From assembly GCF_028553885.1 (NCBI RefSeq), contig NZ_CP067170.1, positions 124,001 to 188,000 of the forward strand: a stretch of DNA of 64,000 nt. The letters run 5' to 3'. Shown here one piece after another: positions 7,571-48,879 of this stretch (the first letter of the stretch is position 1; each line of letters opens with the position of its first letter). The DNA is from Paracoccus aestuarii (lineage in GTDB: Bacteria; Pseudomonadota; Alphaproteobacteria; Rhodobacterales; Rhodobacteraceae). The position numbers were made by a program, and so were the translations under genes. Below the pieces are notes generated by a model, which worked only from the letters and a program-made list of their open reading frames with translations, did not search any database and was not told the DNA's origin.

Positions 7571-7682
7571 GGGTCGGCTCCGGGCATGGGGAAGGAGGGC
7601 AGGGCGGTGGACGCCTTGCGGAGGATCTGGCCGAGGTGACGGGCCTCAGCGGCCGGTGGGCGCGTCGGATGCGAAGGGCGAC

Positions 7683-8768
7683 CTAGCTGTCTGCGGCACT
7701 GACGGGTGCGCTCTCTGCGGCGCTGCGGGTCGCGCCGCCTTCCTCGCTGGCTACCGCGCTCCCGGAGGGCGCGGCCTCGATCCGGGCCGCCAGGGCGTCG
7801 AGCCGGGCCTCGATCTCGGCGCGGAGAGCGGGGCGGTAGATCTCCCGGGTCACGTTCAGCATGTCGGCGAACTCGGCCTGAGGAACGACCGCATCGGGAA
7901 AGCTCCGGCACAGATCGCGATGCATTCGTGTCTCGGCCGCGCAGGCAGCGGCGCCGGTGGGCATGACCAGCTCGCGCAGCACCCGCACGGCGGCCCCCTT
8001 GGGCAGGCCCAGCTGATGGCGGTGGCGCTTGGTCGGATGGGCGGAATAGCCCAGCTTCAGGAAGTGCCGTCCGTCATGGCGCAGGTCCAGGAGGTAGATC
8101 CGGCTCTCCCGCGCGCTCCAGCTCTGCCCGCAACCGGGGCAGTCGACCTGGCCCCAGGAAAGGTTTGCCCGGGCGAGGCGCCGCTCAGTCCCGCAGACAT
8201 GGCGGTAGAGGTGGTAGTTCGGGTTGCCCTCCGGGTCCGGCCCGATCCGGGTCCAGCCGTGCTTTGCTGCGATGGCCGCCTCGCGGGCGGCAAAGCAGGT
8301 CTCGCAGCGCAGCCCGGTCAGCCCCTCGGCCACGCGGATGATGATCTCGTATTGCCGCCGGAGCACATGGCCGCAGCGGGCGCGGTAGAACCCGTAGGCG
8401 GTGCTCTGCGGATCACGGCCCAGATACACCAGCGCCGCCCGGATCGCTGTGTCGCTGCGGCGAGCCTCCAGGCAGGCATGGCAGATCGGCTGCGCAACCG
8501 TCAGCACGGAGATCCGGCAGGCGAAGACATGACCACAGGTTCGGCAGCAGAGCGCCAGATGCAGGCGGTCGATGACCCGGGCGGCGATGTCGAAGCCCTT
8601 GGCGGCGGCGGCGCGGGACCAGCGGGCGGCGACGGGGCCCGGATGGACGGCCAAGGGCGTGCCCTCCACGAGGATCGTGTCCGGGGCGTCGGGGGCCTCG
8701 TGAGTAACAGTTGGGCAGGAAGGAACGATCGCCCGGCGAGGTGCGGCGGAACGGGGTCTGCGGGGCAT
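7683..8768 (-). CDS. zinc-ribbon protein with GIY-YIG/T5orf172-type C-terminal domain
   Basis: 361 residues. The N-terminal 215 residues carry repeated cysteine pairs typical of small zinc ribbons: C75-C78, C96-C99, C155-C158 and C210-C213, plus single cysteines at 132 and 192. Residues 224-310 resemble the T5orf172/MUG113 branch of the GIY-YIG superfamily: IYLLDL, then KLGYSAHPTKRHR with the expected arginine, then an AAETRMHRDL segment with the expected glutamate. This suggests a DNA-binding nuclease. A GGAGG ribosome-binding site precedes the ATG. Neighbours are the FtsH-like protease and an unknown gene. The domain call is by pattern; activity is unproven. Confidence 0.6.
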   Translation of the reverse strand: MPRRPRSAAPRRAIVPSCPTVTHEAPDAPDTILVEGTPLAVHPGPVAARWSRAAAAKGFDIAARVIDRLHLALCCRTCGHVFACRISVLTVAQPICHACLEARRSDTAIRAALVYLGRDPQSTAYGFYRARCGHVLRRQYEIIIRVAEGLTGLRCETCFAAREAAIAAKHGWTRIGPDPEGNPNYHLYRHVCGTERRLARANLSWGQVDCPGCGQSWSARESRIYLLDLRHDGRHFLKLGYSAHPTKRHRHQLGLPKGAAVRVLRELVMPTGAAACAAETRMHRDLCRSFPDAVVPQAEFADMLNVTREIYRPALRAEIEARLDALAARIEAAPSGSAVASEEGGATRSAAESAPVSAADS

Positions 8769-18852: not shown

Positions 18853-19155
18853 TCACACATGGAGCCTCCGGCAAACCCGGCGCGGCTCAGTCGTCTCCTC
18901 ACCGTGTTCCGCAGCGAGACCGGCCATCGTCCGGGCGAAAATGCCCTTCTCGCTCCGGCGCCTTCAACGGTTATAAAGCGTCTTGTGAGGCCCATAGGCG
19001 GTGGGTGCATCACGCCAGCACAAGCCATTGCGTATCATGAAGGTGATCCCGCTGAAAACACGTCTGCAAAAAACGCATGGCTTGCCGTCGGACTTCGAAA
19101 AATAGGGAGCGAGACGTGCCATCTGCGCGTCGGTCAGCCAAGAAAGATCGATCAT
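18853..19155 (-). pseudogene. IS5-family (IS427-like) transposase remnant
   Basis: The frame from 19155 starts MIDLSWLTDAQMARLAPYFS and continues GITFMIRNGLCWRDAP, the typical N-terminus of IS427-type transposases. A TGA interrupts it after KTLYNR, and the same frame resumes with RSEKGIFARTMAGLAAEHG before a second stop. The DDE catalytic part is missing. The remnant borders the sulfolactate operon on its downstream side. Confidence 0.75.
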
Positions 19156-19392
19156 GCTCGACGCAACCGTCTTGTTCTGGCTTTGAAACTCAATGAGCCT
19201 GGAGCCTAGCCTTTTGGCCTGCCCCCGGTCATCCCTGATCCATAACAAAGTTTGCCGACTTGTGCGCTGCTTCCCAAATTTGGAACACCAGATGCTGAAC
19301 TTTCCCGGCTCCATCTTGGCGGCGGGCTGGCTGCGCCGCCGGGATCATGAAGCGTGATCGGGGCCGCCAGTCCGCAAGCTCTGAGCGCATTC

Positions 19393-20556
19393 TCAGCGCG
19401 CGAGAGCGTGCATCTGGGCGATCAGGTCTGATTTCCCCTCGAACCCGATGCCCGGCAGTTCGGGCATCAGCACATGGCCGTCCTGCACCGCGACCCCGTC
19501 GGGAAAGCCGCCATAGGGCTGGAACAGGTCGGGATAGCTTTCATTGCCGCCCAGCCCCAGCCCGGCTGCGATGTTCAGCGACATCTGGTGCCCGCCATGC
19601 GGGATGCAGCGCGCGGGTGACCAGCCGAACTGCCGCAGGACCTCCAGCGTGCGCAGGTATTCGACCAGCCCATAGGACAGCGCGCAGTCGAATTGTAGAT
19701 AGTCGCGGTCGGGCCGCATGCCGCCGTAGCGCAGCAGGTTGCGGGCGTCCTGATGCGAGAACAGGTTCTCGCCCGTGGCCATCGGCGCGTCGTAGAATTC
19801 CGACATGGCGGCCTGCAGCGCATAATCCAGCGGGTCGCCGATTTCCTCGTACCAGAACAGCGGATAGGCACGCAGCATCTTGGCATAGGCGATGGCCGTC
19901 TCCAGATCAAAGCGGCCGTTGGCGTCCACGGCCAGCTGCGCCTGCGACCCGATCTCGTCCAGCACGGCCTCGATCCGCCGGCGGTCCTCGTCCAGGGATG
20001 CGCCGCCGATCTTCATCTTGACCACGGTATAGCCGCGGTCGACATAGCTGCGCATCTCGGCGCGCAGGGCGCCGTTGTCCTTGCCCGGATAGTAATAGCC
20101 CCCCGCCGCATAGACGAAGACGCGGGGGTCCGCCTCGCGCCCGTGAAGGGCGGCCAGATGGCGGAACAGGGGCTTGCCCTCGATCTTGGCGACCGCGTCC
20201 CAGATGGCCATGTCGATGGTGCCCACCGCGACCGAGCGTTCGCCGTGCCCGCCCGGTTTTTCATTCGCCATCATCGCCGCCCAGATGCGGTGCGGGTCCA
20301 GGTTGTCGCCCGCTTCGGTCAGCAGGCTCTCGGGCGCGGCCTGCAGGATCCGGTCGGCGAACCGCTCGCGGATCAGCCCGCCCTGACCATAGCGCCCGTT
20401 CGAGTTGAAGCCGTACCCCACGACCCGCTGACCGTCGCGGATGACGTCCGTCACGACTGCGACCAGGCTGGTCGTCATCTTGCTGAAGTCGATATAGGCG
20501 TTGCGGATCGGAGAGGCGATCGGCTTGGTCACCTCGCGGATGTCGATGATGCGCAT
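19393..20556 (-). CDS. tarD: D(-)-tartrate dehydratase-like enolase-superfamily enzyme
   Basis: 387 residues, very like the Bradyrhizobium D-tartrate dehydratase over the full length as I remember it. Enolase-superfamily residues are in place: KMKIG near 180-184 with the catalytic lysine, metal ligands D211 (in DANGRFD), E237 (in FWYEE) and E263 (in TGENLF), and the His pair in CIPHGGHQ at 320-323. The family dehydrates D-tartrate to oxaloacetate. It is the last gene of the sulfolactate operon, 30 bases after the exporter gene, so either the operon also serves tartrate or this enzyme handles a related 2-hydroxy acid. The fold is certain; the substrate is by homology. Confidence 0.82.
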   Translation of the reverse strand: MRIIDIREVTKPIASPIRNAYIDFSKMTTSLVAVVTDVIRDGQRVVGYGFNSNGRYGQGGLIRERFADRILQAAPESLLTEAGDNLDPHRIWAAMMANEKPGGHGERSVAVGTIDMAIWDAVAKIEGKPLFRHLAALHGREADPRVFVYAAGGYYYPGKDNGALRAEMRSYVDRGYTVVKMKIGGASLDEDRRRIEAVLDEIGSQAQLAVDANGRFDLETAIAYAKMLRAYPLFWYEEIGDPLDYALQAAMSEFYDAPMATGENLFSHQDARNLLRYGGMRPDRDYLQFDCALSYGLVEYLRTLEVLRQFGWSPARCIPHGGHQMSLNIAAGLGLGGNESYPDLFQPYGGFPDGVAVQDGHVLMPELPGIGFEGKSDLIAQMHALAR

Positions 20557-20586
20557 GGTCTGGCTCCTTTTTCGGGGGTGGGCGCG

Positions 20587-21600
20587 TCATCCCAGCAGGT
20601 GGACGCCCGCGACGATGAATGTGCCCAGCAGGACCGTCTCGGCGACGATCAGGGCGATGGCGGTGCCGCCCACATCCAGCATGCGGACCAGCGAGGTGTT
20701 GATGCCCACCGCCGCGATGGCGATCAGCAGGGCCCACCGGCTGGCACCCTCGGCCAGCGATGACAGGGCAGGGGGGATCACCCCCAGGGAGTTCAGCGTG
20801 GCCAGCGCCAGAAAACCCACCACGAATGACGGCAGCAGCGGCGGACGCTTGGCGCCCGGCTCTAGATCGCCCAGACCCCCGCCCCGGATCGCCAGCGAAA
20901 AGATCAGGACGACCGGCGCCAGCATGGACACGCGGATCAGCTTGACCAGCGTCGCGGTCTCGCCGACCTCGGGGCTGATCGAAAAGCCCGCGCCGACCAC
21001 CTGCGCCACATCATGGATGGTCCCGCCCAGAAACACCGCCGATTCCAGCGCGTTGAACCCCAGGGCGGTGGACAGAGGCGGATAGATGACCATGGCGACG
21101 GTGGACAGGATCGTCACCGACAGGACGGTGAAGGCCAGGTTGCGGTCGGATTTGTCGGTTCGGGGCAGGACGGCCGCGATCGCCATCGCCGCCGAGGCGC
21201 CGCAGATCGCGACCGATCCCCCCGTCAGCAGCGCCAGCCGCCAGCCTCGCCCGAACAGCCGCGCCGCCAGCAGCGCGAACAGGATCGTCACGACCACGCC
21301 CGCGATCACCAGCGCGATCATCGGGCCGCCCAGTTCCGCCAGCATCTGCACCGAGATCCGCGCCCCCAGCAGAGCGACGCCAAGGCGCAGCACCGTCTTG
21401 GCCGAGAACGCGACCCCGGTGGCGGTGCGGGTCTCGGGCTCGGCCAGGAAATTCAGCGTCAGGCCCAGCAGCAGGGCCATCAGCATGGCGGGCGCGCCGT
21501 AATGTTCGGCCAGGAACTGCGCGGTCACGGCCACGAGGGTCGCGACCGCGATGCCCGGAAACAGTGCCCTGATCCGCGACTGGTCAAGGGCCGCAATCAC
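20587..21600 (-). CDS. YeiH/UPF0324-family membrane exporter (SuyZ-like role)
   Basis: About 337 residues with roughly ten hydrophobic helices and the YeiH-family segments LRLGVALLGARIS, GGSVAICGASAAMA and FLGGTIHDVAQVVGAGF. Related proteins are called putative sulfate exporters, and an exporter named SuyZ is encoded with suyAB in a cysteate-degrading Paracoccus. Here it would remove sulfite or sulfate made by SuyAB, which is inference from context. The GTG start at 21600 lies 4 bases after the comC stop, so the genes are tightly coupled. Confidence 0.8.
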   Translation of the reverse strand: MIAALDQSRIRALFPGIAVATLVAVTAQFLAEHYGAPAMLMALLLGLTLNFLAEPETRTATGVAFSAKTVLRLGVALLGARISVQMLAELGGPMIALVIAGVVVTILFALLAARLFGRGWRLALLTGGSVAICGASAAMAIAAVLPRTDKSDRNLAFTVLSVTILSTVAMVIYPPLSTALGFNALESAVFLGGTIHDVAQVVGAGFSISPEVGETATLVKLIRVSMLAPVVLIFSLAIRGGGLGDLEPGAKRPPLLPSFVVGFLALATLNSLGVIPPALSSLAEGASRWALLIAIAAVGINTSLVRMLDVGGTAIALIVAETVLLGTFIVAGVHLLG

Positions 21601-21604
21601 CTGA

Positions 21605-22600
21605 TCATGCCCCCAGCGCGTCGATCTGCGCCAGCAGCGCATCATCGACCTGCAGGCCGTCCGCCGCCGCTTTCCGAAGGTCGTCGCGGCGCGCGCCGGG
21701 CAGGCGGGCGCCGGGCTGCTGGGCCATCGCATCGGCCAGATCGTCGATCCGCGACCGCGCCATGTCGGAAAATGCGTCCGGGTCCAGCGTCAGGATCACC
21801 TGCCCGACGCCCGGCGGCGGGCCATCGGCGTCGAAGAACGACGAGGCCTCATGCGCGAAATTGGCGCCCATCAGGCCCGCCGCCAACAATTCCACCATCA
21901 GCGCCAGCGCGGTGCCCTTGGCATCGCCCATGGGGATCATGGTGCCCGCCAGCGCGGCGGCGGGATCGGTGGTGGGCTGTCCGTCGGCGTCCAGCGCCCA
22001 GCCTTCGGGGATGGCGGTGCCCTGCTGCTCGGCGGCCATGATCTTGCCGCGCGCGACCTTGGACAGCGACACGTCCACGACGATCGGGCTGCGCCCGCCC
22101 GAACGGGGCGCGGCAAAGGCGATAGGGTTCGTCCCGAACAGCGCCTTGCGCCCGCCCCAGGGCGCCATCGCGGCGGGCGTGTTGGCAAACAGCAGCGCGA
22201 CCAGACCGGACCGGGCCAGACGCTCGACCGTGACGCCGGCGACGCCGCAATGATGCGACCGGACGATGCCTGCCCCGGCGATGCCCTGTTGCGGCGCGGC
22301 CTCGGCCAGCCAATCCACGGCCAGATCCAGCGCCGGATAGGCAAAGCCCATCGCGGCATCCACCGCCACGACGCCGGGTCGCGGATGGGTGGCGGTGGGC
22401 GTGGCAAAGCCGTCCACCTTGCCCGACAGCGCCTGCGCGGCATAGGACGGGACGCGCCGCAGCCCGTGGCCCGACTGGCCCACCATCTCGGCTGCGACCA
22501 GCGCTTGGGCGACGGAGCGGGCATTCGCCTCGGCGGTCCGGCAGCGCATCAGGGTGCGAAGGATCAGGTCATGGACCTGATCGGGCGTCATCGTGACCAT
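21605..22600 (-). CDS. comC: (R)-sulfolactate dehydrogenase, ComC type (Ldh family)
   Basis: 331 residues of the malate/L-lactate (Ldh) dehydrogenase family, a fold distinct from Rossmann dehydrogenases. Recognisable segments are VGQSGHGLRRVPSY, the SHHCGVAG active-site region near residue 115, FGTNPIAFAAP and the GDAKGTALALMVELL C-terminal motif. In sulfolactate operons this enzyme reduces sulfopyruvate to (R)-sulfolactate with NADPH. It sits 3 bases after slcC, the enzyme that makes sulfopyruvate, and context is the main reason for choosing this substrate over malate or diketogulonate. Confidence 0.82.
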   Translation of the reverse strand: MVTMTPDQVHDLILRTLMRCRTAEANARSVAQALVAAEMVGQSGHGLRRVPSYAAQALSGKVDGFATPTATHPRPGVVAVDAAMGFAYPALDLAVDWLAEAAPQQGIAGAGIVRSHHCGVAGVTVERLARSGLVALLFANTPAAMAPWGGRKALFGTNPIAFAAPRSGGRSPIVVDVSLSKVARGKIMAAEQQGTAIPEGWALDADGQPTTDPAAALAGTMIPMGDAKGTALALMVELLAAGLMGANFAHEASSFFDADGPPPGVGQVILTLDPDAFSDMARSRIDDLADAMAQQPGARLPGARRDDLRKAAADGLQVDDALLAQIDALGA

Positions 22601-22603
22601 GGC

Positions 22604-23536
22604 TCAGACCCTCTCCGCAAGGTGGTCCAGGACCCGGTCGGCGATCAGGCTGCTGACCCGGACATTGGCCTGGGCGGTGACGCCGGCGATATGCGGCGTC
22701 AGGATCAGGTTCGACAGGCCCGCGAAACGCTGACCGGCCTTGGCGGTCAGGGGCTCGACCTCGAACACGTCCAGCGCGGCACCGGCCAGATGGCCCTGCC
22801 GCAGGGCATTGGCCAAGGCATCCTCGTCCACGACACCGCCCCGGGCCGCATTGATCAGCACCGCGCCGGGGCGCATGGCGCGCAACGCGGCGGCGTCGAT
22901 CATGTGGCGGGTCTGCGGGGTCAGCGGCACATGCAGGCTGATGACATCCGATCCCGCCAGCAGGTCCGCGCGCGACACGGGGGCGACATCGCCCCAGGCC
23001 GGATCATCGGCGGGCAGGTGCGGATCATGGGCGATGACCCTCATGCCCATCGCCTGCGCCCGCCGCGTGACCTGCCGCGCGATGGCGCCATAGCCCATCA
23101 GGCCCAGGGTCAGGGCCGAGGCCTCGGTCCCGATCAGGTCCTGGCGGGGCCAGTCGCCCGCGATGACCCGCTCGGTCGCCGCATAGGCCCCGCGCAGCAG
23201 CATCATCGCGGTGGTGATGACATATTCCGCCACCGCCAGATCATTGGCCCCGGTGGCGGGCCAGACCGTGATGCCACGCGCCTGACAGCCCTCCATGTCG
23301 ATATTGTCCAGCCCCACGCCAAGCCGCCCGACCGCCTGCAGCCGGGGCGCCGCCGCCAGCAGATCGGCATCGACGCGGGTGCGGTTGCGCACGATCAGCA
23401 CGTCGGTCGCGGCGACCTGGGCCAGCAGATCGGCGCGGCGGTCGACCAGATCGGGCGCATAGAGCGTGTCATGGGACGCCGCGATCCGCTGCACCGCAGC
23501 CTCGTCCATGAATTCGGTGATGACGATACGCGACAT
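22604..23536 (-). CDS. slcC: (S)-sulfolactate dehydrogenase (D-2-hydroxyacid dehydrogenase family)
   Basis: 310 residues. The family features are clear: GRLGVGLDNIDM, the Rossmann dinucleotide loop LGLMGYGAIARQV, INAARGGVVDEDAL with the catalytic arginine, and the DVFEVEPL glutamate followed by LTPHIAGVT with the catalytic histidine. In the known slc pathway SlcC oxidises (S)-sulfolactate to sulfopyruvate with NAD. Paired with ComC it would racemise sulfolactate into the (R)-form used by SuyAB. Gaps to the neighbours are 3 and 13 bases. The homologous family also includes phosphoglycerate dehydrogenase, so substrate is assigned by context. Confidence 0.85.
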   Translation of the reverse strand: MSRIVITEFMDEAAVQRIAASHDTLYAPDLVDRRADLLAQVAATDVLIVRNRTRVDADLLAAAPRLQAVGRLGVGLDNIDMEGCQARGITVWPATGANDLAVAEYVITTAMMLLRGAYAATERVIAGDWPRQDLIGTEASALTLGLMGYGAIARQVTRRAQAMGMRVIAHDPHLPADDPAWGDVAPVSRADLLAGSDVISLHVPLTPQTRHMIDAAALRAMRPGAVLINAARGGVVDEDALANALRQGHLAGAALDVFEVEPLTAKAGQRFAGLSNLILTPHIAGVTAQANVRVSSLIADRVLDHLAERV

Positions 23537-23549
23537 GGCGTTTCCTTTC

Positions 23550-25532
23550 CTAGAACAGCAGTGCCTGGGGCAGGGGCACGTTCAGCACCCTGTCCAGCGT
23601 CAGATAAAAGCCCACCACCATCGCCAGCAGGCAGGCCAGATAGACCGCCAGACGGCGTGCGGTCAGGCGCCCGAACTGGCCCGTCAGCATCAGGATGATG
23701 CAGGCCGCAAGCGACGTGACGAACAGACCCAGATGCGGAAAGACCAGCGCCCAGCCCAGCATTGTGGCGGCCAGAACCAGGCCGCGCACCGTGCCGTCCG
23801 CGCCCGCGCCTTCGGCATTGATGCCGCCGTGACCGCGCAGGCTGCGCAGGATCTGCAGGACCGACAGCCCCGCCAGCGCGCCGCCGATGGCATAGGGAAA
23901 GGCCGCGGCCATGGGCGACAGGCCCCGCGCCTGCATCAGCATCACGACCGCCAGCCCTAGGAACACGACCGATCCCGCAAGGCCCGCCCGGTCTACCCGC
24001 GTCGCCGCCGCGATGCCGTCTCGGGCCAGGTCCTGGGCCACCAGCCGGCGCGCCGTGCGGCCGCGCAGCAGCGGCAGCATCATCGTCAGCAGGATCAGCG
24101 CCACGATGGCCCAGCTGATCGGCCGGTTCAGCAGCAGCTGGCCCATGAAATCGCCGCGCGCGCCCCCGATCATCCAGGCGCGCATGAAGCCCTGTTCCGC
24201 GATCTGGCCCAGGACCAGCCCCAGCACGATGGGCGAGGCGCCGAACCCCGCCAGCCCCGCGGCCCATCCGACCAGCCCCAGCACCACCATGACCAGCACG
24301 TCATGCGGGTTGGCGTGGATGGCAAAGCTGCCGATGACGGTCATGAAGGCGATCAGCGGCACCAGCATCGCCTTGGGGACATTGGTGATGAAGCGGAAGG
24401 CATAGCGCCCGATGATCAGGCCCACCGGCAGCATCAGAAGCGTGGCGATGACCAGCCCGGTCATGAAGACATAGACCGTGCCGTCGCCCGACTGGAACAG
24501 CGACGGACCTACCCGGATGCCCTGCACCATCAGCGCGCCCATGATGACCGCATCCGGCGGTGTGCCCGGAATGCCCAGCACCAGCGTGGGGATGAAGCCG
24601 CCGCCGACGGTGGCGTTGTTGGCGCTTTCGGTGGCCAGCAGGCCCCCCGGTTCGCCCTTGCCGAAATTGGCGGTGTTCTTGGAGGCGCGGCGCGCCTCGG
24701 AATAGGCGATCAGCGAGGCGATCGAGCCGCCCGCCCCCGGCAGGATGCCCACCAGCGTACCGATCAGCGACGACCGGATGAGGTTGAACCAGTTCTTGAC
24801 GGAAATTCCGATGGCCTCGAACAGGCGAAAGCCGCGCGCCTCGCCGGGGTCCAGGTGCTGGCCCGGGGTGGCGACCATGCCGATCAGCACCGGAATGCAG
24901 TAAAGCCCGATCAGCGCCGCGATGATGTCGATACCGCCCAGCATCGAGGGCATGCCCCCCGTGAACCGCATGTCGCCGCCGATGACGGCCACGCCGATCA
25001 TCGACAGGAACAGCCCGAACATGCCGCCCATCAGGCCCTTGACCAGATTGCCCTGCGACAGGGTCGCGATCAGCGTCAGGCCCAGGATGGCCAGCCAGAA
25101 ATACTCGGTCGACTGAAATGCCAGCGCCAGCGTGGCCAGCCCCGGCGCCAACGTGATCAGCAGAATCGCCCCCACCAGTCCGCCGAAGACGCTGGCGATG
25201 GTGGCCAGCGTCACGGCCAGATCGCCGTCGCCGCGCCGGGCCATGGGATAGCCGTCAAAGGTGGTGGCGATGGCACTGGGCGTGCCCGGCGTGTTCACCA
25301 GGATCGCCGCAAAGGCCCCGCCATAGATCGCGCCGGTATAGATCGCCCCCAGCATGATCAGCCCCGATGCCGGGTCCATGACGAAGGTGAACGGCACCAG
25401 TACGGCGATGGCCATGGTGGCCGACAGCCCCGGCAGGGCGCCGATGACCGTGCCGCCCAGCACCCCCAGCAGCGCCAGAAGCAGGTTCATCGGGCTGAGC
25501 GCTTCGAACAGAATGGTTGCTGCATTGGCCAT
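23550..25532 (-). CDS. tripartite tricarboxylate transporter, fused TctA-TctB permease
   Basis: 660 residues. Positions 1 to about 500 are a complete TctA large permease (IGALPGLSATMAIAVLVPFT, ILVNTPGTPSAIATTFDGYP, GILPGAGGSIASLIAYSEAR, LVLGIPGTPPDAVIMGAL). Positions about 515-660 are a TctB-like small permease with four helices (ending FYLTLDRVLNVPLPQALLF). These are normally two proteins, encoded in slc operons by separate genes (slcF and slcG). Here one chain supplies both. With the TctC binding protein encoded 77 bases upstream it should import sulfolactate. No frameshift or internal start suggests a split product. Confidence 0.88.
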   Translation of the reverse strand: MANAATILFEALSPMNLLLALLGVLGGTVIGALPGLSATMAIAVLVPFTFVMDPASGLIMLGAIYTGAIYGGAFAAILVNTPGTPSAIATTFDGYPMARRGDGDLAVTLATIASVFGGLVGAILLITLAPGLATLALAFQSTEYFWLAILGLTLIATLSQGNLVKGLMGGMFGLFLSMIGVAVIGGDMRFTGGMPSMLGGIDIIAALIGLYCIPVLIGMVATPGQHLDPGEARGFRLFEAIGISVKNWFNLIRSSLIGTLVGILPGAGGSIASLIAYSEARRASKNTANFGKGEPGGLLATESANNATVGGGFIPTLVLGIPGTPPDAVIMGALMVQGIRVGPSLFQSGDGTVYVFMTGLVIATLLMLPVGLIIGRYAFRFITNVPKAMLVPLIAFMTVIGSFAIHANPHDVLVMVVLGLVGWAAGLAGFGASPIVLGLVLGQIAEQGFMRAWMIGGARGDFMGQLLLNRPISWAIVALILLTMMLPLLRGRTARRLVAQDLARDGIAAATRVDRAGLAGSVVFLGLAVVMLMQARGLSPMAAAFPYAIGGALAGLSVLQILRSLRGHGGINAEGAGADGTVRGLVLAATMLGWALVFPHLGLFVTSLAACIILMLTGQFGRLTARRLAVYLACLLAMVVGFYLTLDRVLNVPLPQALLF

Positions 25533-25609
25533 GGTTCACCCCCTTGGACGTGGCACAGGTCCACCGCCGGGCCGCCGCGCGGGCGGTCCGGCGGCGGTCG
25601 TGATGCGGC

Positions 25610-26560
25610 CTATTGCTGCAATTGCTGGGCGATGGCGGTATAGGCCTCGATCCGCTCGGCCATGAAGGCGTCCATCTCGGCATAGGGGACGTCGATCAGG
25701 GCATAGCCGTCATTCTCCATCTGCTCGCGGAAGGAGGGGTCCTGGTTGATCTGGCCGATGATGTCGGACAGCTGGGTGCGGATCTCCTCGGGGGTCGAGG
25801 CGGGCACGCCGATGCCGCGATAAGCGCCGCCGACCATCTCGATCCCCAGCTCGCGGAAGGTGGGGCTGTCGGGGAACAGCGGGTGGCGTTCCTCGGTCGC
25901 AACGGCCAGGACGCGGGTGGCATCGCCCTGACGCACGGCCACGGTGGTATAGCCCCACAGCATGTCCACCTCTCCGCCCACCAGCGCGGTCTCGGTCGCG
26001 CCGGTGCCGGTATAGGGGATATAGGTTGTCTCGACCCCGGTCTCGTTCATGAACACCTGATTGGCGATGTGATTGGCCGAATTGGTGGCCGATCCGCCCG
26101 CCGTGACGCCCCCCGGCATCGCATTGGCCGCGTCGATCACGTCCTGCACGGTCTGGAACGGGCTGTCATTCGCGACCATCAGCGCGTCGGGGGTAAAGTG
26201 GAACATATAGACGTTGGTGATGACCTCGGTCGTATAGCCGGGGTCCTGCAGCATCGGCTGCAACACGATATGCGGCAGGTTGGTGCCCATGATCGTCTGC
26301 CCGTCGCCGCTGATGCCGTTCAGCCCGGCCCAGGCCTGCGCACCGCCCGCCCCGGGTAGATACTGCACGATCATGTCGTGGCCGGTCAGCTCGCGGAACC
26401 GCGCCTGCTGATAGCGCGCGGTCACGTCGCTTTCCCCGCCTGCGTTGAACGGGATGATGTAGGTGACCGGACCGTCCGGATAGGCCAGCGCGGCCCCCGC
26501 GGTTCCCATCAGTGCAAGGCTGGCCGCGCCGATCAGGCGCCGTGTCGTCGTTCCGATCAT
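25610..26560 (-). CDS. slcH: TctC-family substrate-binding protein of the sulfolactate transporter
   Basis: 316 residues with a signal peptide (MIGTTTRRLIGAASLALMGT, then AGAALAYPDGP with cleavage near ALA). The mature part is a Bug/TctC periplasmic binding protein: VTYIIPFNAGGESDVTAR, the PGAGGAQAW ligand loop, ATNSANHIANQVF and IPYTGTGATETALVGGEVD. The binding pocket in this family holds a carboxylate between two loops, suitable for sulfolactate. It lies between suyB and the fused permease in the same operon. SlcH naming follows the equivalent gene in other bacteria. Confidence 0.85.
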   Translation of the reverse strand: MIGTTTRRLIGAASLALMGTAGAALAYPDGPVTYIIPFNAGGESDVTARYQQARFRELTGHDMIVQYLPGAGGAQAWAGLNGISGDGQTIMGTNLPHIVLQPMLQDPGYTTEVITNVYMFHFTPDALMVANDSPFQTVQDVIDAANAMPGGVTAGGSATNSANHIANQVFMNETGVETTYIPYTGTGATETALVGGEVDMLWGYTTVAVRQGDATRVLAVATEERHPLFPDSPTFRELGIEMVGGAYRGIGVPASTPEEIRTQLSDIIGQINQDPSFREQMENDGYALIDVPYAEMDAFMAERIEAYTAIAQQLQQ

Positions 26561-26647
26561 GGGTCTCTCCTCCCGCTTCGTGAATGGTCCCGATGATGCC
26601 CGGTGCCTGCCGCCCCCCTCCTCAAAGGTGCGGCAGGCGGGCGGCCC

Positions 26648-27829
26648 TCAGGCGCTGCGATACAGTTTGGTCATCGAGAATTCCCGGTGACCCAAGGCCT
26701 CGGCGGCGGTCAGACGGCCGTTGGCGGTGCGCATGATCATCTCGATCAGGCTGTCTCCGGCCTGGTCGATGGTCATCTCGCGTGTCAGGACGCCGGTGAC
26801 GTCCACGTCGATATGTTCGGACATGGTCCGCAGCGTGCGCGGATTGCCCGAGATCTTGATGACCGGCACGATGGGGTTGCCCACCACATTGCCCTGCCCG
26901 GTCGGGAAGGTGTGGATGACATAACCGCCCGCCGCCATCAGCGTCACACATTCCGCCGCCGCCGACGAGCTGTCCATGAAATACAGCCCCGGCCCCTTCT
27001 CGGGCGTCTCGGCGGGGCCGATCGCGTCGATATAGGTCGAGCTGCGGCCGATCTTTTCGAGGTTGCCCAGGGCCTTTTCCTCGATCGTGGTCAGCCCGCC
27101 CAGGATGTTGCCCTTGGTCGGCTGGCTGTCGGAAAGATCCGAGGTCTTGAAGGCCTCGATCACGTCGTCTTGGTAGGATTGCCAGATCTGCTTGAACTTT
27201 TTGGCGGCCTCGGGGGTGGCGGCGCGGGTCTCGCAGATATGTTCGGCGCCGGTGATCTCGGACGTCTCGCCAAAGCAGCCATAGATGCCTTGCGGCAGTA
27301 GCTTGTCATACATGTTGCCGACCGTCGGGCACGAGGACAGACCCGTGGTCGTGTCGCTTTCGCCGCATTTGGTCGAGATCCAAAGATCGCTGACCGGGCA
27401 ATCCTCCTTTTGCAGCTCGCTGGCCCAGTGGACGTATTCCTTGGCCTTCCAGCTGGCTTGGCGGATCGTCTCGAAATCCCCCTTCTGCTCGATGGAAAAG
27501 CCGGTGACGGGCTTGCCGGTCTTGGCGATGCCGTCCACGATGACCTTGGTCCATTCCGGCTCGATCCCGATCACGACCACGGCGGCGACGTTGGGGTTCG
27601 CGCCGGTACCGATGATAGTGCGGAAATGCAGCTCCAGATCCTCGCCGAACTGCAGGCGGCCGTAGGCATGCGGCAGGGCCATCGTGCCCTTGACGTTGTT
27701 GGCCACCGCCTCACAGGCCGCGTTCGAGATGTCGTCGACCGGCAGGATCAGGACGTGGTTGCGCACGCCCACACGGCCATTCTCGCGACGCCATGCCTTG
27801 ACGGTCGCAGTGCTGAAATCAAGCGCCAT
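26648..27829 (-). CDS. suyB: (R)-sulfolactate sulfo-lyase, large subunit
   Basis: 393 residues of the altronate-dehydratase (UxaA) superfamily, with segments diagnostic of Suy[21 protein letters not shown] near the N-terminus, TALS-type motif [52 protein letters not shown] and [16 protein letters not shown]. With SuyA it cleaves (R)-sulfolactate to pyruvate and bisulfite. It follows suyA after 3 bases with its own AGGTGG ribosome-binding site. The neighbouring slc genes support sulfolactate over a sugar acid. Confidence 0.9.
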
Positions 27830-27832
27830 GGA

Positions 27833-28120
27833 TTACCACCTTTTTGTCTTGCAGTTTTGCGTGTGGACGTGACCGCCCACATCGGCATCGCCGATCATCC
27901 GGCCGATATCCTCGCCGTATTTGATGACCGTGTCCCCCGCCTTCAGCGGCTTCAGCGCCACCTTGTGCCCGATGGGAATGTCGGCCTTGGCCGTCAGGCG
28001 GAAATCCGAATTATCGGCGGTAACTACGCATAGCATCTCGGTACCGGCGGCGAGATCCTCGACGACGACGACACCGACATTGTCCTCGCGATCATGGACC
28101 AGAAGTTGCGGAATACTCAA
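27833..28120 (-). CDS. suyA: (R)-sulfolactate sulfo-lyase, small subunit
   Basis: 95 residues, a SAF-domain protein of the UxaA N-terminal type. LLVHDREDNVGVVVVEDLAA, DIPIGHKVALKPL, GDTVIKYGEDIGRMI and the ending HVHTQNCKTKRW match SuyA. The start is TTG at 28120 with GGAGG five bases upstream; no ATG is available without running into the promoter. It is the first gene of the operon and is divergent from the GntR regulator, with a 136-bp shared control region between them. Confidence 0.88.
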   Translation of the reverse strand: MSIPQLLVHDREDNVGVVVVEDLAAGTEMLCVVTADNSDFRLTAKADIPIGHKVALKPLKAGDTVIKYGEDIGRMIGDADVGGHVHTQNCKTKRW

Positions 28121-28168: not shown

Positions 28169-28208
28169 ATACATATCATATCATATACAAGACTATTCCT
28201 ATATGTAT
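28169..28208. promoter_or_regulatory. AT-rich inverted repeat between suyA and gntR
   Basis: ATACATAT (28169-28176) and ATATGTAT (28201-28208) are perfect inverted copies 24 bases apart, with the repeated unit CATAT in the interval. The block lies midway between the divergent suyA and gntR starts and is far more A/T-rich than the genes. It is the best candidate for the GntR operator controlling both directions. Confidence 0.5.
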
Positions 28209-28256: not shown

Positions 28257-28958
28257 ATGGCACCCCCGCTCTACCAGACGGTCATCAACTCCATCATCGC
28301 CCAAATTGCGGCGGGGGATCTGCTGCCGGGCGGCATGCTGCCCAGTGAGACGCAACTGGCTCATGATATCGGTGTGTCTCAAGGCACCGCGCGCAAGGCC
28401 CTCATGATGCTCGAACAGCATGGAATCGTCCGACGTGAACAAGGTCGAGGTACATTCGTCACCGCGCGGACGCCCGAATCGTCCCTGTTCAACTTTTTTC
28501 GCCTTCGCCCGCCAGATGGACGCGTAATCAAACCTAAGGTTCTGGAAGAGAGGATCGCAAGGCGCGCAGCCACACCCATTGAGCGTGAAACGCTGCATGG
28601 GACACCCACCGAGGTGATCGAGATTCGTCGGGTGCGCAGCCTACTGGATCGCCGCGGAGTCATGGAGACCTCCGTCATATCGGTCGACCTCTTTTCGGGG
28701 ATCGAGCGGCGCAGCCCTTTACCAAGCGCCCTCTATGTTCTGTATCAGCAGGCCTACGGGATCATTGTCCTGCATGCCGACGAGGCAATTCGTGCGTCCG
28801 TGGCGTCAATCGACGAGGCCACCTCACTCAATGTCAAGGCTGGCACTCCGCTGCTGCGAGTCGAACGTCTAGCTCGAGATGTACTCGATCGGACAATCGA
28901 GCGTCGGCATAGCCTGTATCTCACGGAGGACCTTAGCTACATGGTGCGCCTTGACTGA
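28257..28958 (+). CDS. GntR/HutC-family regulator with UTRA domain
   Basis: 233 residues. The N-terminal winged helix is canonical (YQTVINSIIAQIAAGDLLPG, MLPSETQLAHDIGVSQGTAR, KALMMLEQHGIVRREQGRGT). The rest is a UTRA ligand-binding domain, ending ERRHSLYLTEDLSYMVRLD as in HutC-type repressors. It is divergent from suyA and probably represses the operon until sulfolactate or a product binds. Other slc operons use an unrelated regulator type, so control here may have evolved separately. The inducer is unknown. Confidence 0.82.
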   Translation: MAPPLYQTVINSIIAQIAAGDLLPGGMLPSETQLAHDIGVSQGTARKALMMLEQHGIVRREQGRGTFVTARTPESSLFNFFRLRPPDGRVIKPKVLEERIARRAATPIERETLHGTPTEVIEIRRVRSLLDRRGVMETSVISVDLFSGIERRSPLPSALYVLYQQAYGIIVLHADEAIRASVASIDEATSLNVKAGTPLLRVERLARDVLDRTIERRHSLYLTEDLSYMVRLD

Positions 28959-29394: not shown

Positions 29395-30236
29395 ATGATC
29401 GAAAAGAACCACCCGAGCCTGTCGGTTGGGTTGCAATGTCGCCTGCTGTCGATCTAGCGCTCATCGTTCTATTACGAGCCGCAGAGCGAAACGGCGATGA
29501 ACCTCGACCTCATGCTGCTGATCGACAAGCAGTTCCTGGATACCCCGTTCTACGTTGTCCGGCAGATGACGTGGCACCTGCAGAACGAGGGCCATGCCGT
29601 GAACCAGAGACGCATCCGCCGCCTGATGCGCCGCACTTTGCGGTGTCAGTCGAGTCCCCGCCTCCTCCGGCAAGACAATCCGGCACCGTCTGAACCGCGG
29701 AGGCGACAGGGCGGCCAACAGCGCACCGCACATCATCGCAATCTCCCGAATGCGCCTCGACCAGCGGACGAAGGAATACGTGGCCAGTCGCATCGCCATG
29801 GGACATTCAAAGCTCGAAGCCATCAGGATGATCAAACGATACATCGCCCGTGAAGTCTTCGGGATTATCCGTGCCCGACAAAAGAAGATCGACCAAGTAT
29901 CCGCGGCAACGTCTTGACTCACAAAAGGGCGTCCAGGGGGCACAGCTCACGTCCTTTGCCTGGACTGACCGGCTGAAGCGGGTCGGCGCCCGGAGCTCGA
30001 TGGACGGCAAGGGGCGCTGCCTCGACAACATCTTCATCGAGCACCTCTGGCGATCCCTGAAGTATGAATGCGTCTATCTGCACGCTTGGGAGACCGTCTC
30101 GCAGGCTAGAACCGGCATCGGGCGGTGGATCACTTTCTACAACCACCAGCGGCCCCACGCCGCCCATGGCGGACAACCCCCCGCCGTGGTCTACTTCAGA
30201 ACCATAGAAACCGATCAGCAGGTGCAGGCAGTAGCT
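29395..30236 (+). pseudogene. IS3 orfB (DDE integrase), split by foreign sequence
   Basis: The start region MIEKNHPSLSVGLQCRLLSI is followed by a TAG (29455-29457) where a serine codon is expected, then SSFYYEPQSETAMNLDLMLL and ALNxRRIRRLMR-type sequence to about 29,645. After the IS110 fragment the integrase core resumes at about 29,925 with SFAWTDRLKRVG, SMDGKGRCLDNIFIEHLWRS and FYNHQRPHAAHGGQPPAVVY, which includes the last catalytic Glu. The first two catalytic Asp lie in the missing part. Confidence 0.75.
29648..29916 (+). pseudogene. IS110-family transposase C-terminal fragment
   Basis: A separate frame reads SGKTIRHRLNRGGDRAANSA, then IIAISRMRLDQRTKEYVASR and MIKRYIAREVFGIIRARQKK to a TGA at 29914-29916. 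This is the conserved end of IS110 (transposase 20) proteins, whose serine (in the SGKT segment) is part of the active site. About 90 codons remain. It replaces the middle of IS3 orfB exactly, so one element recombined with or deleted into the other. Confidence 0.72.
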
Positions 30237-30537
30237 TATATTAACCGGATATCTGTCCAAGAGGCGGGGAGTAGCTCATTTCTCGGCGCGATATCGACGA
30301 TTTCGGCTTTCCGTTCCCGAATGCGACACTTAGCCTGAAGAGCTGATAACATGTCAGGCAGAGCTTCATTACCTTGCCCGATCGCATGCGACCGACAGCT
30401 TCGTCCCGCGAAGCGGCCGCCAACAGAATTAGTCACACGCGCTACTGCAACATAAGACAGATTATAAAAACTATGCGCGCGATTGCACCGTGGTGCGCGC
30501 TGCGCTAGGCCGCCCTCCGCGCCAAGGGAGAATGCCG

Positions 30538-31948
30538 ATGCGGTTCTGGACCACAATCACCCTGATCCTCGTCCTCTCGGCGGTCGGGCTGACCTACGAG
30601 ATCGCGGCAGGCCGCGTGCTGGCGCCGTTCTTCGGGACCTCGCTGGTGACATGGACATCGGTGATCGCGGTGATCCTGGCGGGATTTTCTCTAGGCAGCG
30701 CACTTGGCGGGCTGGTCGCGGATCGCGACCGGGCGGTGGCGGTGCGCGCGGTGCGGATCGCGCTGATCGCGACGGCGCTGCTGATGGCGGTCTCGCCCGC
30801 GGTGCTGGGGCTGGTCTATGCCTTGGGCGCGCGGGGCACGGGGGGGATGCTGGCGGCGGTGATGCTGGCCTTCTTTCCGGCATCGGTTCTGGTCACCTTC
30901 CCCTCGCCCTTTCTGGCGCAGATGGCGATCGAGGCCCGGCCGGGGCGCGAGGGGTCGTCCCTGGGCCTGGTGCTGGCCGCGGGCTCGCTCGGGGCGATCT
31001 TCGGGGCGGTGCTGGCGGGGTTCGTGGCGCTGCCCGTGGTGGGGTCGGTGGCGACCTTCGCGGGATGCGGGCTGGTCGCGCTGGCCTGCGTGCCGCTGAT
31101 CCGGGGGCGGGGCGCGGGCCCGGCGGGCCGGGCATGGCGGTGGCCGGGGGCTGGCGGGGCTGGCCGTGCTGGGCGTGACGGCCAGCGGGCCGATGTGCCG
31201 CCATGAATCGGGGATATCCTGCATCGATGTGCAGGTCCAGGGCGACACCGTCTGGCTGCTGTCGGACCGCACCCCGCAGGCGGCCGAGGCGGATGCGCCG
31301 GGACCGGCCATGCTGGCCCTGCCCTATACGCGCTGGATCTGGTCGCGGATGCAGGCCGATCTGGGGCCCGCGCCATCGGTCCTGTTCATCGGCGGTGGCG
31401 GCTACAGCCTGCCCGCGGTGCTGCTGGACCAGGACCCCCGGGCCCGCGCCATGGCGGTCGAGATCGACCCGCTGATCACCCGCGTCGCCCAAGGCCACCT
31501 GCCCCGCGCCGGGGCACTGATCGGGGGGGGTGACCCGCGGCTGCGCATCGCCCATGCCGACGGGCGGCTGTTTCTGAACGAGGCGACCGAACGGTTCGAC
31601 GCGGCGGTGATGGATGCGTTCTCCTCGGGGTCGGTCCCGGCGCATCTGGCCACGCGCGAGGCCTATGCCCGGCTGCGCGCGATGGTGGACGGGCCGGTCT
31701 ATGTGAACCTGATCGACCGCCCCGACGGGCCGCTGCTGCGCGGGGTCCATGCGATCCTGTCCGAGATCTATCCCCATGTCCAGGCCGTGCAGGGCCCCGT
31801 CAGCGCGCGGGGCCGGGCGAACCTGGTGCTGGCGGCATCCGACCGGGCGCTGGCCCCGCTGGCGGCGCTGCCCGACGGGTTCGCCCCGGTCGCGGTGACG
31901 CCCGCCCGCGCCTTCACCGACGACCGGGGCTGGATCGGGCATCGCTGA
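30538..31948 (+). CDS. spermidine-synthase-like membrane protein, frameshifted
   Basis: The first 200 residues form about six hydrophobic helices (LILVLSAVGLTYEIAAGRVL, FFGTSLVTWTSVIAVILAGF, FPASVLVTFPSPFLAQMAIE), typical of fused-MFS/spermidine synthase-like proteins. The C-terminal half is a SAM-type domain with PSVLFIGGGGYSLPAVLLDQ, AMAVEIDPLI and VMDAFSSGSVPAHLATREAY. The two halves lie in different frames; removing one G from the GGGGG run at 31146-31150 joins them as PGLAGLAVLG. The protein would then have about 469 residues. The start at 30538 has GGGAG upstream. Polyamine synthesis is not proven; many of this branch have unknown substrates. Confidence 0.72.
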
Positions 31949-31954
31949 GACGCC

Positions 31955-33082
31955 TCAGGGCATGCGGCCAAAGATCGCCTCGGCCTCGGCCAGGCCCTTG
32001 CGGCGCAGCGTCAGCAGACCGTCGCGCCGCGTGACCAGCCCGCGGTCATGGGCGCGCAGGATCGCCGCGCGGGCCCGCGGCGCGGACCAGCCCAGATTGT
32101 CGGTCAGGGTGCGCAGGGTGCTTTCCTCGGCCATGTCGGGGCTGTCGCGATGGGTGAAGAGATGCGCGACCAGCGCCCGGCTGTCATGGTCCATGCGCTG
32201 GCCCCGGCGGCGCAGCGCTTGCGCCACCAGCCCCCGATCGGGCGCTGCGATCAGCGCCAGCACGAACCACAGGCCCGCCATGCTGGCCATCATCCCCGCG
32301 ATGGACACGTTCCAGCGCAGCGCCAGCGCGTAGCCCGCCAGGCAGGACGCCACCGCCAGCAGGACCGCCACCGCCATCATCGACCACAGCCGCCGGCACA
32401 GCAGGAATGCCGTCGCGGGCGGCACGATGACGAAGGCGATGAACAGAATCGCCCCCACCGCGTCGAAGGCCGCGACTGCCGTCACGCTGGTCAGGGTCAG
32501 CACCCCGTAATGCAGGACCCCGGGCAGGAACCCCAAGGCCGCGGCCAGCCCGGGATCGAAGCTGGCCAGCTTCAATTCCTTCCAGAAGGCCAGCACGAAG
32601 GCCAGGTTCATCGCCAGCACCGCCCCCAAGGTCGCCACCGCCACCGGCACGGGATGTCCCGCGACCGTGACGATGTTCAGCCAGACAAAGCCGATCTCGC
32701 CCAGAAGGACGCTGTCGACATGCAGATGCACGTCGCGCGCATGGACCGAGATCAGCAGCACCCCCGCCGCGAACATCGCCGGAAAGACCAGCCCGATGGC
32801 CGCATCCATCCGCACCAGGCGCGACCGGGCCAAGGCCTCGGTCAGGATGACGGTCAGCACGCCGGTCAGCGCCGCGCCGATCAGCTGGACCGGCCCGGAC
32901 AGATGCCCCGTGGCCAGCCAGACGGTGATGACGCCCAGGACGATGGAATGGCTGATCGCATCGGTCAGCATCGCATTGCCGCGCAGCACCAGGAACGTCC
33001 CCAGCACCGCCCCCGACAGCCCCACCAGGATGCCGGTCAGAAGGATCATCGCGGGGATCGAGGCGAAGAAGGCGTCGATCAT
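31955..33082 (-). CDS. TroD/MntD-type metal ABC permease with winged-helix tail
   Basis: About 375 residues. Nine or so hydrophobic helices carry the ABC-3 family pattern (LVGLSGAVLGTFLVLRGNAM, LTDAISHSIVLGV, FDPGLAAALGFLPGVLHYGV, DAVGAILFIAFVIVPPATAF). The last 75 residues are cytoplasmic and look like a winged helix (LRTLTDNLGWSAPRARAAIL, RAHDRGLVTRRDGLLTLRRK), reminiscent of DtxR-type domains found on some manganese permeases. The ATG overlaps the stop of the preceding permease gene by 4 bases. It is the fourth gene of the troABCD-like operon. Confidence 0.85.
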   Translation of the reverse strand: MIDAFFASIPAMILLTGILVGLSGAVLGTFLVLRGNAMLTDAISHSIVLGVITVWLATGHLSGPVQLIGAALTGVLTVILTEALARSRLVRMDAAIGLVFPAMFAAGVLLISVHARDVHLHVDSVLLGEIGFVWLNIVTVAGHPVPVAVATLGAVLAMNLAFVLAFWKELKLASFDPGLAAALGFLPGVLHYGVLTLTSVTAVAAFDAVGAILFIAFVIVPPATAFLLCRRLWSMMAVAVLLAVASCLAGYALALRWNVSIAGMMASMAGLWFVLALIAAPDRGLVAQALRRRGQRMDHDSRALVAHLFTHRDSPDMAEESTLRTLTDNLGWSAPRARAAILRAHDRGLVTRRDGLLTLRRKGLAEAEAIFGRMP

Positions 33083-34200
33083 CCCGCGTCCCCCCGATCG
33101 GACCCGGCGCGGTCGCGGCCGGCGGGCGTCAGCTGCCAGCGGGGCGCGGTCTCGGGCGGATGGGCGACAGGGCGGATCAGGCCCTGCCCCTCCAGCGCGG
33201 CCAGGCGGCGCGGCGATGGTGCCTTGCCGAGCGCCGCCCCCAGCATGCCGCGTTCGGCCGGATAGGCGGCGTCGTCGTGATCGCGCGCCAGCCCGTCCAT
33301 CGCGGCCAGGATGCGCGCCTCGCTGATGCGCGCACGGGCGCGGGCGCGTGCCACCGCCCGCCACGCCAGCCCCCGCCCCGGCGCCAGGATCAGCGAGACC
33401 AGCACCACCGCCGATGCGATCAGCACCACGACCGGCCCCGTGGCCAGCCCCCGCGCGCCCGCGCTGATCAGCGCGCCGCCGGCGCCTGATGCCGCTCCGA
33501 TCGCCGCCGACAAAAGGACCATCGGCCCCAGCCTGTCCGTCCATTGCCGGGCCGCCGCCGCCGGCGCGATCAACAGCGCGACCATCAGCACCACCCCCAC
33601 CAGCTGCAGCCCCAGCACGATGGCCAGCGCGATCAGCACGGTCAGCGCGGCCTCCAGCGCGACGACGGGCATGCCTTGGGCGCGGGCGAAGTCGGGGTCG
33701 AAGCTGACCAGCTTGAATTCCTTCCACAGCGCCAGGATCACCGCCAAGGCCAGCGCGCCCCCCGCCCCGATGATCCACAGATCCCCCACCAGGATCGCCG
33801 CCGCCTGACCGAACAGGAACCCCGACAGCCCCGCGCTGGCCGATCCGCCCGCGGCCTGCAGATGGGTCAGCATCACCACCCCCACCGCGAAGAACACCCC
33901 CAGCACGACGCCGAGCGCCGCGGTCGGTCTTCAGCCGGGTGCGGCGGGTGATGACCATGACCGACAGCGCCGCCAAGGCCCCGGTCAGCAGGGCCCCGGC
34001 CATGATGCTGCCCAGATCGCGACCGCCCGCGACCAGGAACCCCAGGCAGACGCCCGGCAGGGCCGCATGGGCCAAGGCGTCGCCCAGCAGGCTCTGCCGC
34101 GCAGCACGGCGAAGGCGCCCAGCATCCCCGACACCGCCCCCAGCATCACCGCCCCCAGCAGCACCGTGCGCACGATCTGGGACGACAGCAGCTCGGTCAC
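33079..34200 (-). CDS. TroC/MntC-type metal ABC permease, two frameshifts
   Basis: The GTG start at 34200 overlaps the ATPase stop (GTGA). The first frame gives SSQIVRTVLLGAVMLGAVSG and FAVLRG; a missing base near 34098 moves reading to SLLGDALAHAALPGVCLGFL and then MVITRRTRLKTD; a second indel near 33924 moves it to ALGVVLGVFFAVGVVMLTHL and on to the end. Together the pieces make a complete ABC-3 permease with a C-terminal basic domain, so the indels look like sequence errors. The encoded protein would have about 373 residues. Confidence 0.75.

Positions 34201-48862: not shown

Positions 48863-48879
<17 letters not shown>
46657..48879 (-). CDS. tandem APH-fold phosphotransferase (two kinase domains)
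   Basis: 740 residues with two copies of the choline/aminoglycoside kinase fold. The first half has AIHGDFSADQVVI and RIIDWDRLAAGHPARDLGRF; the second has GIHRDFYPDQILI and WILDLDLFTQGDPAIDLGNF, so both have the catalytic HxD and metal-binding D. A further RYKPG segment recurs (LRYKPGTSC, LRYKPGRRL, LRHKPGRRA), which suggests a third partial copy. It overlaps the ABC exporter gene by 17 bases (GTG start) and is followed by glycosyltransferases, so the substrate is probably a sugar or lipid-linked sugar. The last 25 residues border an IS110 remnant and may not be native. Confidence 0.75.

Follow-up and report, generated by a model that had tools for sequence, protein, structure and literature searches.

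A stretch of 64,000 nucleotides from Paracoccus aestuarii (NCBI RefSeq assembly GCF_028553885.1, contig NZ_CP067170.1, positions 124,001 to 188,000; hereafter the window) carries an operon of eight genes with a predicted function in sulfolactate utilisation, and the last of these genes, tarD, encodes a homologue of D-tartrate dehydratase. This arrangement is real and recurs in a few lineages. The explanation that we consider probable, with some reserve, is that a sulfolactate operon acquired, at its 3' end, a gene for a standard D-tartrate dehydratase, whose substrate enters by a transporter that takes up both acids. All eight genes are on the minus strand in the order suyA-suyB-tctC-tctAB-slcC-comC-yeiH-tarD (28120 to 19393), as the original prediction had placed them, with gaps of 3, 87, 77, 13, 3, about 4 and 30 bases (yeiH starting at the GTG at 21600); the start codon of suyA is TTG and is preceded by GGGGAGGATCAC. 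A pattern scan found one promoter-like site (1.7 in shuffled sequences) and seven terminator-like sites (3.6 in shuffled sequences, standard deviation 2.4); those on the operon strand are all intragenic and none was found between yeiH and tarD. The eight genes are probably co-transcribed.

The product of tarD is a full-length protein of 387 amino acids. Its best phmmer match among solved structures is the Bll6730 protein (748 bits, residues 1-386, E 2.5e-224; PDB 1tzz, 2dw6, 2dw7), which we take to be the characterised D-tartrate dehydratase TarD of Bradyrhizobium japonicum; the match covers the full length and the catalytic residues are kept. Seven positions (K180, K182, D211, E238, E263, D290 and H320) are invariant in all 101 aligned TarD sequences (98 different ones and three repeats) and presumably provide the KxK motif, the three metal ligands and the His-Asp pair of the active site. 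By numbering, with an offset of two, the second metal ligand falls on E237, which is next to E238 and is conserved in the alignment with 2dw7, and the lysine replaced by alanine in 2dw6 corresponds to K182. The earlier description of the last gene as a full-length member of the enolase superfamily with all catalytic residues was thus borne out, and its identity as an ordinary D-tartrate dehydratase is strongly supported by these similarities; the window copy is expected to act on D-tartrate. A D-tartrate dehydratase of Bradyrhizobium japonicum is also named in PMC10079672.

The eight genes recur, in unchanged order and with a divergent gntR gene in front, at three further loci (L134, L135 and L132); four genomes, including the window's, therefore carry the eight-gene operon, one of them belonging to another genus. 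The recurrence of the gene order puts the arrangement beyond chance. At two more loci (L228 and L233) the operon is visible up to comC, where the contig ends, and tarD may follow beyond. Downstream of tarD, the sequence differs in all four genomes, and remnants of transposases are present on both sides of the operon in the window: a fragment of the insertion sequence (IS) 4/5 type (DUF4096) just beyond tarD (18964-19314, minus strand) and, past gntR, pieces with HTH_21 and rve_3 domains (29497-30338, plus strand). Both features would fit a chance passenger, a gene that recombination or IS activity placed downstream of the operon and that has no functional link to it. We regard this as quite unlikely: tarD is under purifying selection, with ratios of nonsynonymous to synonymous divergence (dN/dS) to the window copy of 0.056 (L134), 0.058 (L135) and 0.095 (L132) at dS values of 0.19-1.14, and two recruitments and one adjacency of tarD, described below, are all beside tripartite tricarboxylate transporters (TTT) of one wider family.

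The original prediction would have lost its ground if tarD were adjacent to these genes only in the window. Instead, five loci, the window included, have tarD at most 9 kb from suyB, and at four others tarD stands behind comDE-tctCAB. The latter are Roseovarius clusters (L041, L046, L047 and L062) in which comD-comE-tctC-tctA-tctB is followed by tarD in the same direction, 56 to 315 bases downstream of tctB; with the widest of these gaps (315 bases), tarD may have its own promoter. The names comD and comE are based on weak and clear thiamine pyrophosphate enzyme domains and on the match to Roseovarius nubinhibens. The four clusters were found through TarD and do not give a frequency among comDE clusters; within the sample of 394 genomes described below, no ComE was found near a TarD. 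The R. nubinhibens cluster itself (L178) consists of a slcD-like gene, comDE and tctCAB; tarD is absent from the 20 kb fetched and is located about 160 kb from the cluster. L178 would correspond to the slcHFG cluster of Denger and co-workers, as presented in an excerpt of the review PMC5812351. Finally, at L133 a cluster of tarD-LysR-LysR-ttuC-ttuC adjoins a suy operon that has its own tctCAB of the window's transporter type (the ttu names are a reading of Pfam families).

In the TarD tree, suy-operon and comDE-operon copies fall into two separate groups: the latter lie among TarDs of tartrate-type clusters and the former are also nested inside the tree. When 36 of the 98 TarD sequences of the tree were chosen for approximately unbiased (AU) tests, one shared origin for both groups was rejected (p 0.0003) and a single clade for the four suy-operon TarDs was not (p-AU 0.27). 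In the tree of all 98 sequences, the TarD of a tartrate-type cluster (L148) nests among these four. The rejection suggests that tarD was gained by sulfolactate operons on at least two occasions.

That sulfolactate clusters recruited tarD twice, and separately, could also mean that TarD acts on a sulfonated or related 2-hydroxy acid here, for instance as an additional sulfolactate lyase or as an epimerase. The geometry would permit it: C2 has the same spatial arrangement in (S,S)-tartrate and in (R)-sulfolactate, and abstraction of the alpha-proton followed by loss of sulfite is conceivable. However, no column was found with a residue that is common to the four suy-operon TarDs and rare (at most two sequences) in the 87 other TarD sequences of at least 80% identity, the operon copies are nested among other TarDs, and SuyAB and SlcC/ComC would already perform such reactions. 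The four comDE-operon TarDs have two distinguishing columns, 2 and 363, both outside the catalytic positions. We consider such a substrate very improbable, and a second activity of the sulfolactate-operon TarD on sulfolactate or a related sulfonate is just as doubtful. Of the two alternatives that had been offered for this operon, a role on a sulfonated acid hence finds no support in the sequence, and the other, two acids served by one transporter, gains indirect support from the two recruitments, from the restriction to operons with this transporter and from the kinship with transporters of tartrate clusters.

The sample of the family comprised 394 genomes (by genus 393), with SuyB in 68 genomes (including G087 and G101, whose matches of 36-40% identity are probably not SuyB), TarD in 16 and both in 12. 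SuyB is thus present in 12/16 TarD genomes versus 68/394 overall (Fisher's exact test, p 3e-7, ignoring phylogeny), and in 8/9 genomes with a TarD of at least 85%, the window's own included (p 4e-6, ignoring phylogeny). ComE, a sulfonate gene of similar frequency (82/394), shows no link to TarD (2/16). SuyB and ComE are nearly exclusive of each other, occurring together in two of the 394 genomes versus about 14 expected (ignoring phylogeny), and one desulfonation route seems to stand in for the other. Among the 101 genomes of the window's genus, 13 have SuyB, 14 TarD and 5 both. Counting the window genome, tarD and suyB are found close together in three of the 12 genomes of the family (G000, G091, G262) and in three of the 5 genomes of the genus (G000, G394, G409); short contigs, as in G008, may hide further adjacencies.

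When the loci of suyB are considered, the pairing is the exception and not the rule: 78 of 83 suyB entries are without tarD (one locus is entered twice, L166 = L207 of G197, and G211 and G473 have two copies each). Of the 83 entries, 15 have a TctA (identity of 50% or more) no further than 9 kb away, and tarD is near suyB in 5 of these 15 versus none of the 68 without such a transporter (Fisher p 1e-4); several suyB loci end at contig edges (e.g. L224, L225, L234), so that a transporter may have escaped notice there, and L234 was counted as lacking one although its tctC is visible. Plasmid records contain SuyB in 23 and TarD in 101 cases, with no overlap among the 60 TarD records listed. As to the frequency of tarD beside suyAB, the pairing recurs in a few lineages and is missing at most of the loci surveyed.

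Membrane part and periplasmic protein of the transporter belong to the TTT family, and the window keeps the order of tctB after tctA, as a fusion, like gene sets of the SlcHFG type; tctB after tctA is given as a feature of slcHFG in PMC5812351. In both the TctA and the TctC tree the window clade is outside the slc clade that contains SlcHFG of R. nubinhibens, and the transporter is therefore best called slc-like only; the other three TctA matches in the window's genome are 29-36% identical. The window clade of the TctA tree, whose outgroups were taken from tblastn matches, consists of the four operons with tarD and of Paracoccus seriniphilus without tarD, and its sister group (93/89) is formed by seven fused TctABs of TarD-linked tartrate-type clusters; an eighth TarD-linked transporter (L074) falls in the slc clade. 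The TctC tree, given a midpoint root for display only, separates the window clade from the tartrate and slc clades and these two from each other, and at the 23 TctC positions that differ between slc and tartrate clades, the window clade is slc-like at 11, tartrate-like at 6 and neither at 6. TctC residues 157, 158 and 184 are among nine fixed differences between the four operons with tarD and six without. Transport of both acids by one transporter may be read from these relationships.

A gene for a GntR/UTRA regulator, unmentioned in the original prediction, is divergent to suyA and is retained beside suyA in the loci with the same operon. Within 260 bases upstream of suyA, 37 of 83 suyB loci have the 12-base core TCTTGTATAAGA with at most one mismatch, and the core is present in 35 of the 36 suyB loci that also have a gntR match of at least 35%; one additional match is located elsewhere within a suy locus and none was found in 104 loci without suyB, 96 of which have tarD. 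LysR genes adjoin several TarD genes of the family. In the window, tarD is now probably under the suy operator.

This regulatory position bears on another explanation: D-tartrate may enter through the sulfolactate transporter by accident, and TarD may serve as a clearing enzyme that prevents its build-up or an inhibition of the sulfolactate enzymes. Such a role would account for the link of tarD to the sulfolactate operon and its operator and not to a LysR gene; the site at 28181 in front of suyA is the sole operator-like match within two mismatches across the window, and tarD near suyB is restricted to entries with this type of transporter. However, 10 of these 15 entries show no tarD (some contigs end early), and we judge clearance to be unlikely.

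If the tarD gene was indeed added to an operon with a transporter for both acids, sulfolactate would be imported by TctC-TctAB, its enantiomers would be interconverted by SlcC and ComC through sulfopyruvate, (R)-sulfolactate would be cleaved by SuyAB to pyruvate and sulfite, and sulfite or sulfate would be exported by the YeiH protein. D-tartrate would enter by the same TctC-TctAB transporter and would be dehydrated by TarD to oxaloacetate in one step, and no other tartrate gene would therefore be needed. Expression of all eight genes would be set by the GntR regulator at the operator before suyA. The best ttuC-like frame of the window's genome (L236, G000:C2:290470-291495; 54%) has one in-frame TGA and may be the decayed remnant of a gene for tartrate or malate dehydrogenase.

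Several observations weigh against this reading. The TctA node that joins the window clade to the tartrate clusters (93/89) is not starred, the window TctC is equidistant to the slc and tartrate-cluster clades (mean identity of 52% to both), and the reading frame of tctAB in L132 (G091; 5714-7699) is shifted close to the start of the gene, next to a run of G, either because the gene is broken or through an error of assembly. Three loci (P. seriniphilus L003, L227, L230) have the first seven genes, with the transporter kept, followed by other sequence without tarD; tarD as a core gene of the sulfolactate operon was rejected on these grounds. Of the 12 family genomes that have both tarD and suyB, 9 carry them far apart or on different contigs, and neither suyA nor suyB was found in the fetched DNA of any of the best 80 of at least 585 confirmed GTDB TarD loci, a set that may lack records close to the window's genome. 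Four of the five loci with tarD and suyB are one operon lineage, so that the Fisher values overstate independence, and none of the co-occurrence statistics is corrected for phylogeny. The synonymous divergence between the window and L135 is 1.14 for tarD versus 0.41-1.00 for the other operon genes, and the L135 copy may therefore have its own history. The contig of L133 stops about 0.9 kb past the second ttuC. Finally, the tartrate cluster of L149 has no tctCAB between LysR and ttuC, and the suy locus in this genome (L169) is equally without such a transporter.

Table 1 Genes and predicted regulatory site of the sulfolactate operon, in window coordinates
Feature	Position	Strand	Assignment
suyA	27833..28120	-	small subunit of (R)-sulfolactate sulfo-lyase; weak galactarate dehydratase match
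suyB	26648..27829	-	large subunit of (R)-sulfolactate sulfo-lyase; Pfam GD_AH
tctC (slcH-like)	25610..26560	-	periplasmic binding protein; Pfam TctC
tctA-tctB fusion (slcF-slcG-like)	23550..25532	-	membrane part of TTT transporter; Pfam TctA and TctB in one frame
slcC-like	22604..23536	-	2-hydroxyacid dehydrogenase; Pfam 2-Hacid_dh and 2-Hacid_dh_C
comC-like	21605..22600	-	sulfolactate dehydrogenase; Pfam Ldh_2
yeiH	20587..21600	-	YeiH-type exporter, probable sulfite/sulfate exporter; Pfam Cons_hypoth698
tarD	19393..20556	-	D-tartrate dehydratase homologue, last operon gene; phmmer 2.5e-224 to PDB 2dw7
probable GntR operator (predicted)	28177..28196		core TCTTGTATAAGA at 28181-28192, one mismatch
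gntR	28257..28958	+	GntR/UTRA (HutC-type) regulator, probable operon regulator; Pfam GntR and UTRA

The assignments of the remaining operon genes differ in strength. Pfam families agree with seven of the eight, the exception being SuyA, which has no Pfam match. suyA and suyB are adjacent, with SuyB in the GD_AH family, and are next to a GntR gene, as expected of a SuyAB operon; SuyA is 84-97% identical to the proteins of window-genus loci, Paracoccus versutus, P. seriniphilus and L132, and SuyB is 93-94% identical to those of P. versutus (94%) and P. seriniphilus. SuyAB is thus predicted to release sulfite and pyruvate from (R)-sulfolactate. The names slcC, comC and yeiH rest on Pfam families and operon context, as the scores for NCBIfam models are below cut-off: the best model for SlcC is phosphoglycerate dehydrogenase (273.3 bits, cut-off 454), ComC has NF040650 (L-sulfolactate dehydrogenase) as its best model with 193.5 bits (cut-off 500), and YeiH matches TIGR00698 with 130.8 bits (cut-off 232.6). 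In P. versutus, a YeiH relative directly follows suyB.

Beyond the operon, the window contains a frame with an ABC-3 transport domain (31955-34075, minus strand) beside a Spermine_synth match below cut-off (31166-31948, plus strand), and a frame of 740 amino acids (46657-48879, minus strand) with a C-terminal APH phosphotransferase domain and no Pfam family above cut-off in the remainder.

The sulfolactate operons of Chromohalobacter salexigens and Paracoccus pantotrophus presumably contain suyAB, slcC, comC, slcHFG and an exporter. The window resembles them in its genes for uptake, for racemisation through two dehydrogenases, for the lyase and for export, and differs by the fused TctAB and by the terminal D-tartrate dehydratase gene. 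Statements supporting these two gene sets are found in excerpts of PMC12421959 and PMC5812351. The slcD/comDE-slcHFG system of R. nubinhibens ISM has sulfolactate as substrate too, and a TTT transporter of the same wider family (PMC5812351, in part), but has ComDE in place of SuyAB and no tarD, though tarD is present in the four other Roseovarius clusters. Tartrate-type clusters of Rhodobacterales (tarD, LysR, tctC-tctAB, ttuC-like, ttuD-like) share TarD and a related fused TctAB with the window and have Iso_dh (tartrate/malate dehydrogenase-like) and LysR where the window has suyAB and GntR; unlike tarD genes that stand alone or are linked to LysR, the tarD of the window is part of a suy operon. 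Excerpts of PMC12636525 mention tarD and suyAB of SAR11, each separately. No description of this operon was found in the accessible parts of literature pairing sulfolactate with tartrate dehydratase or D-tartrate, or tartrate with Paracoccus.

Sulfolactate is a common natural sulfur compound and, like tartrate, a small and strongly acidic hydroxy acid. Should a single TTT transporter import both, naming such transporters by the neighbouring enzyme is unsafe, and organisms that utilise sulfolactate may also use tartrate. The ligand of the GntR regulator becomes a question as well, and may be sulfolactate, tartrate or both. Should a second activity on a sulfonate be true after all, a sequence that looks like an ordinary tartrate dehydratase would conceal a lyase or epimerase for sulfonates within the enolase superfamily. 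That one enzyme was recruited repeatedly beside one transporter family offers a cheap and testable case of how the content of operons could be shaped by a promiscuous importer.

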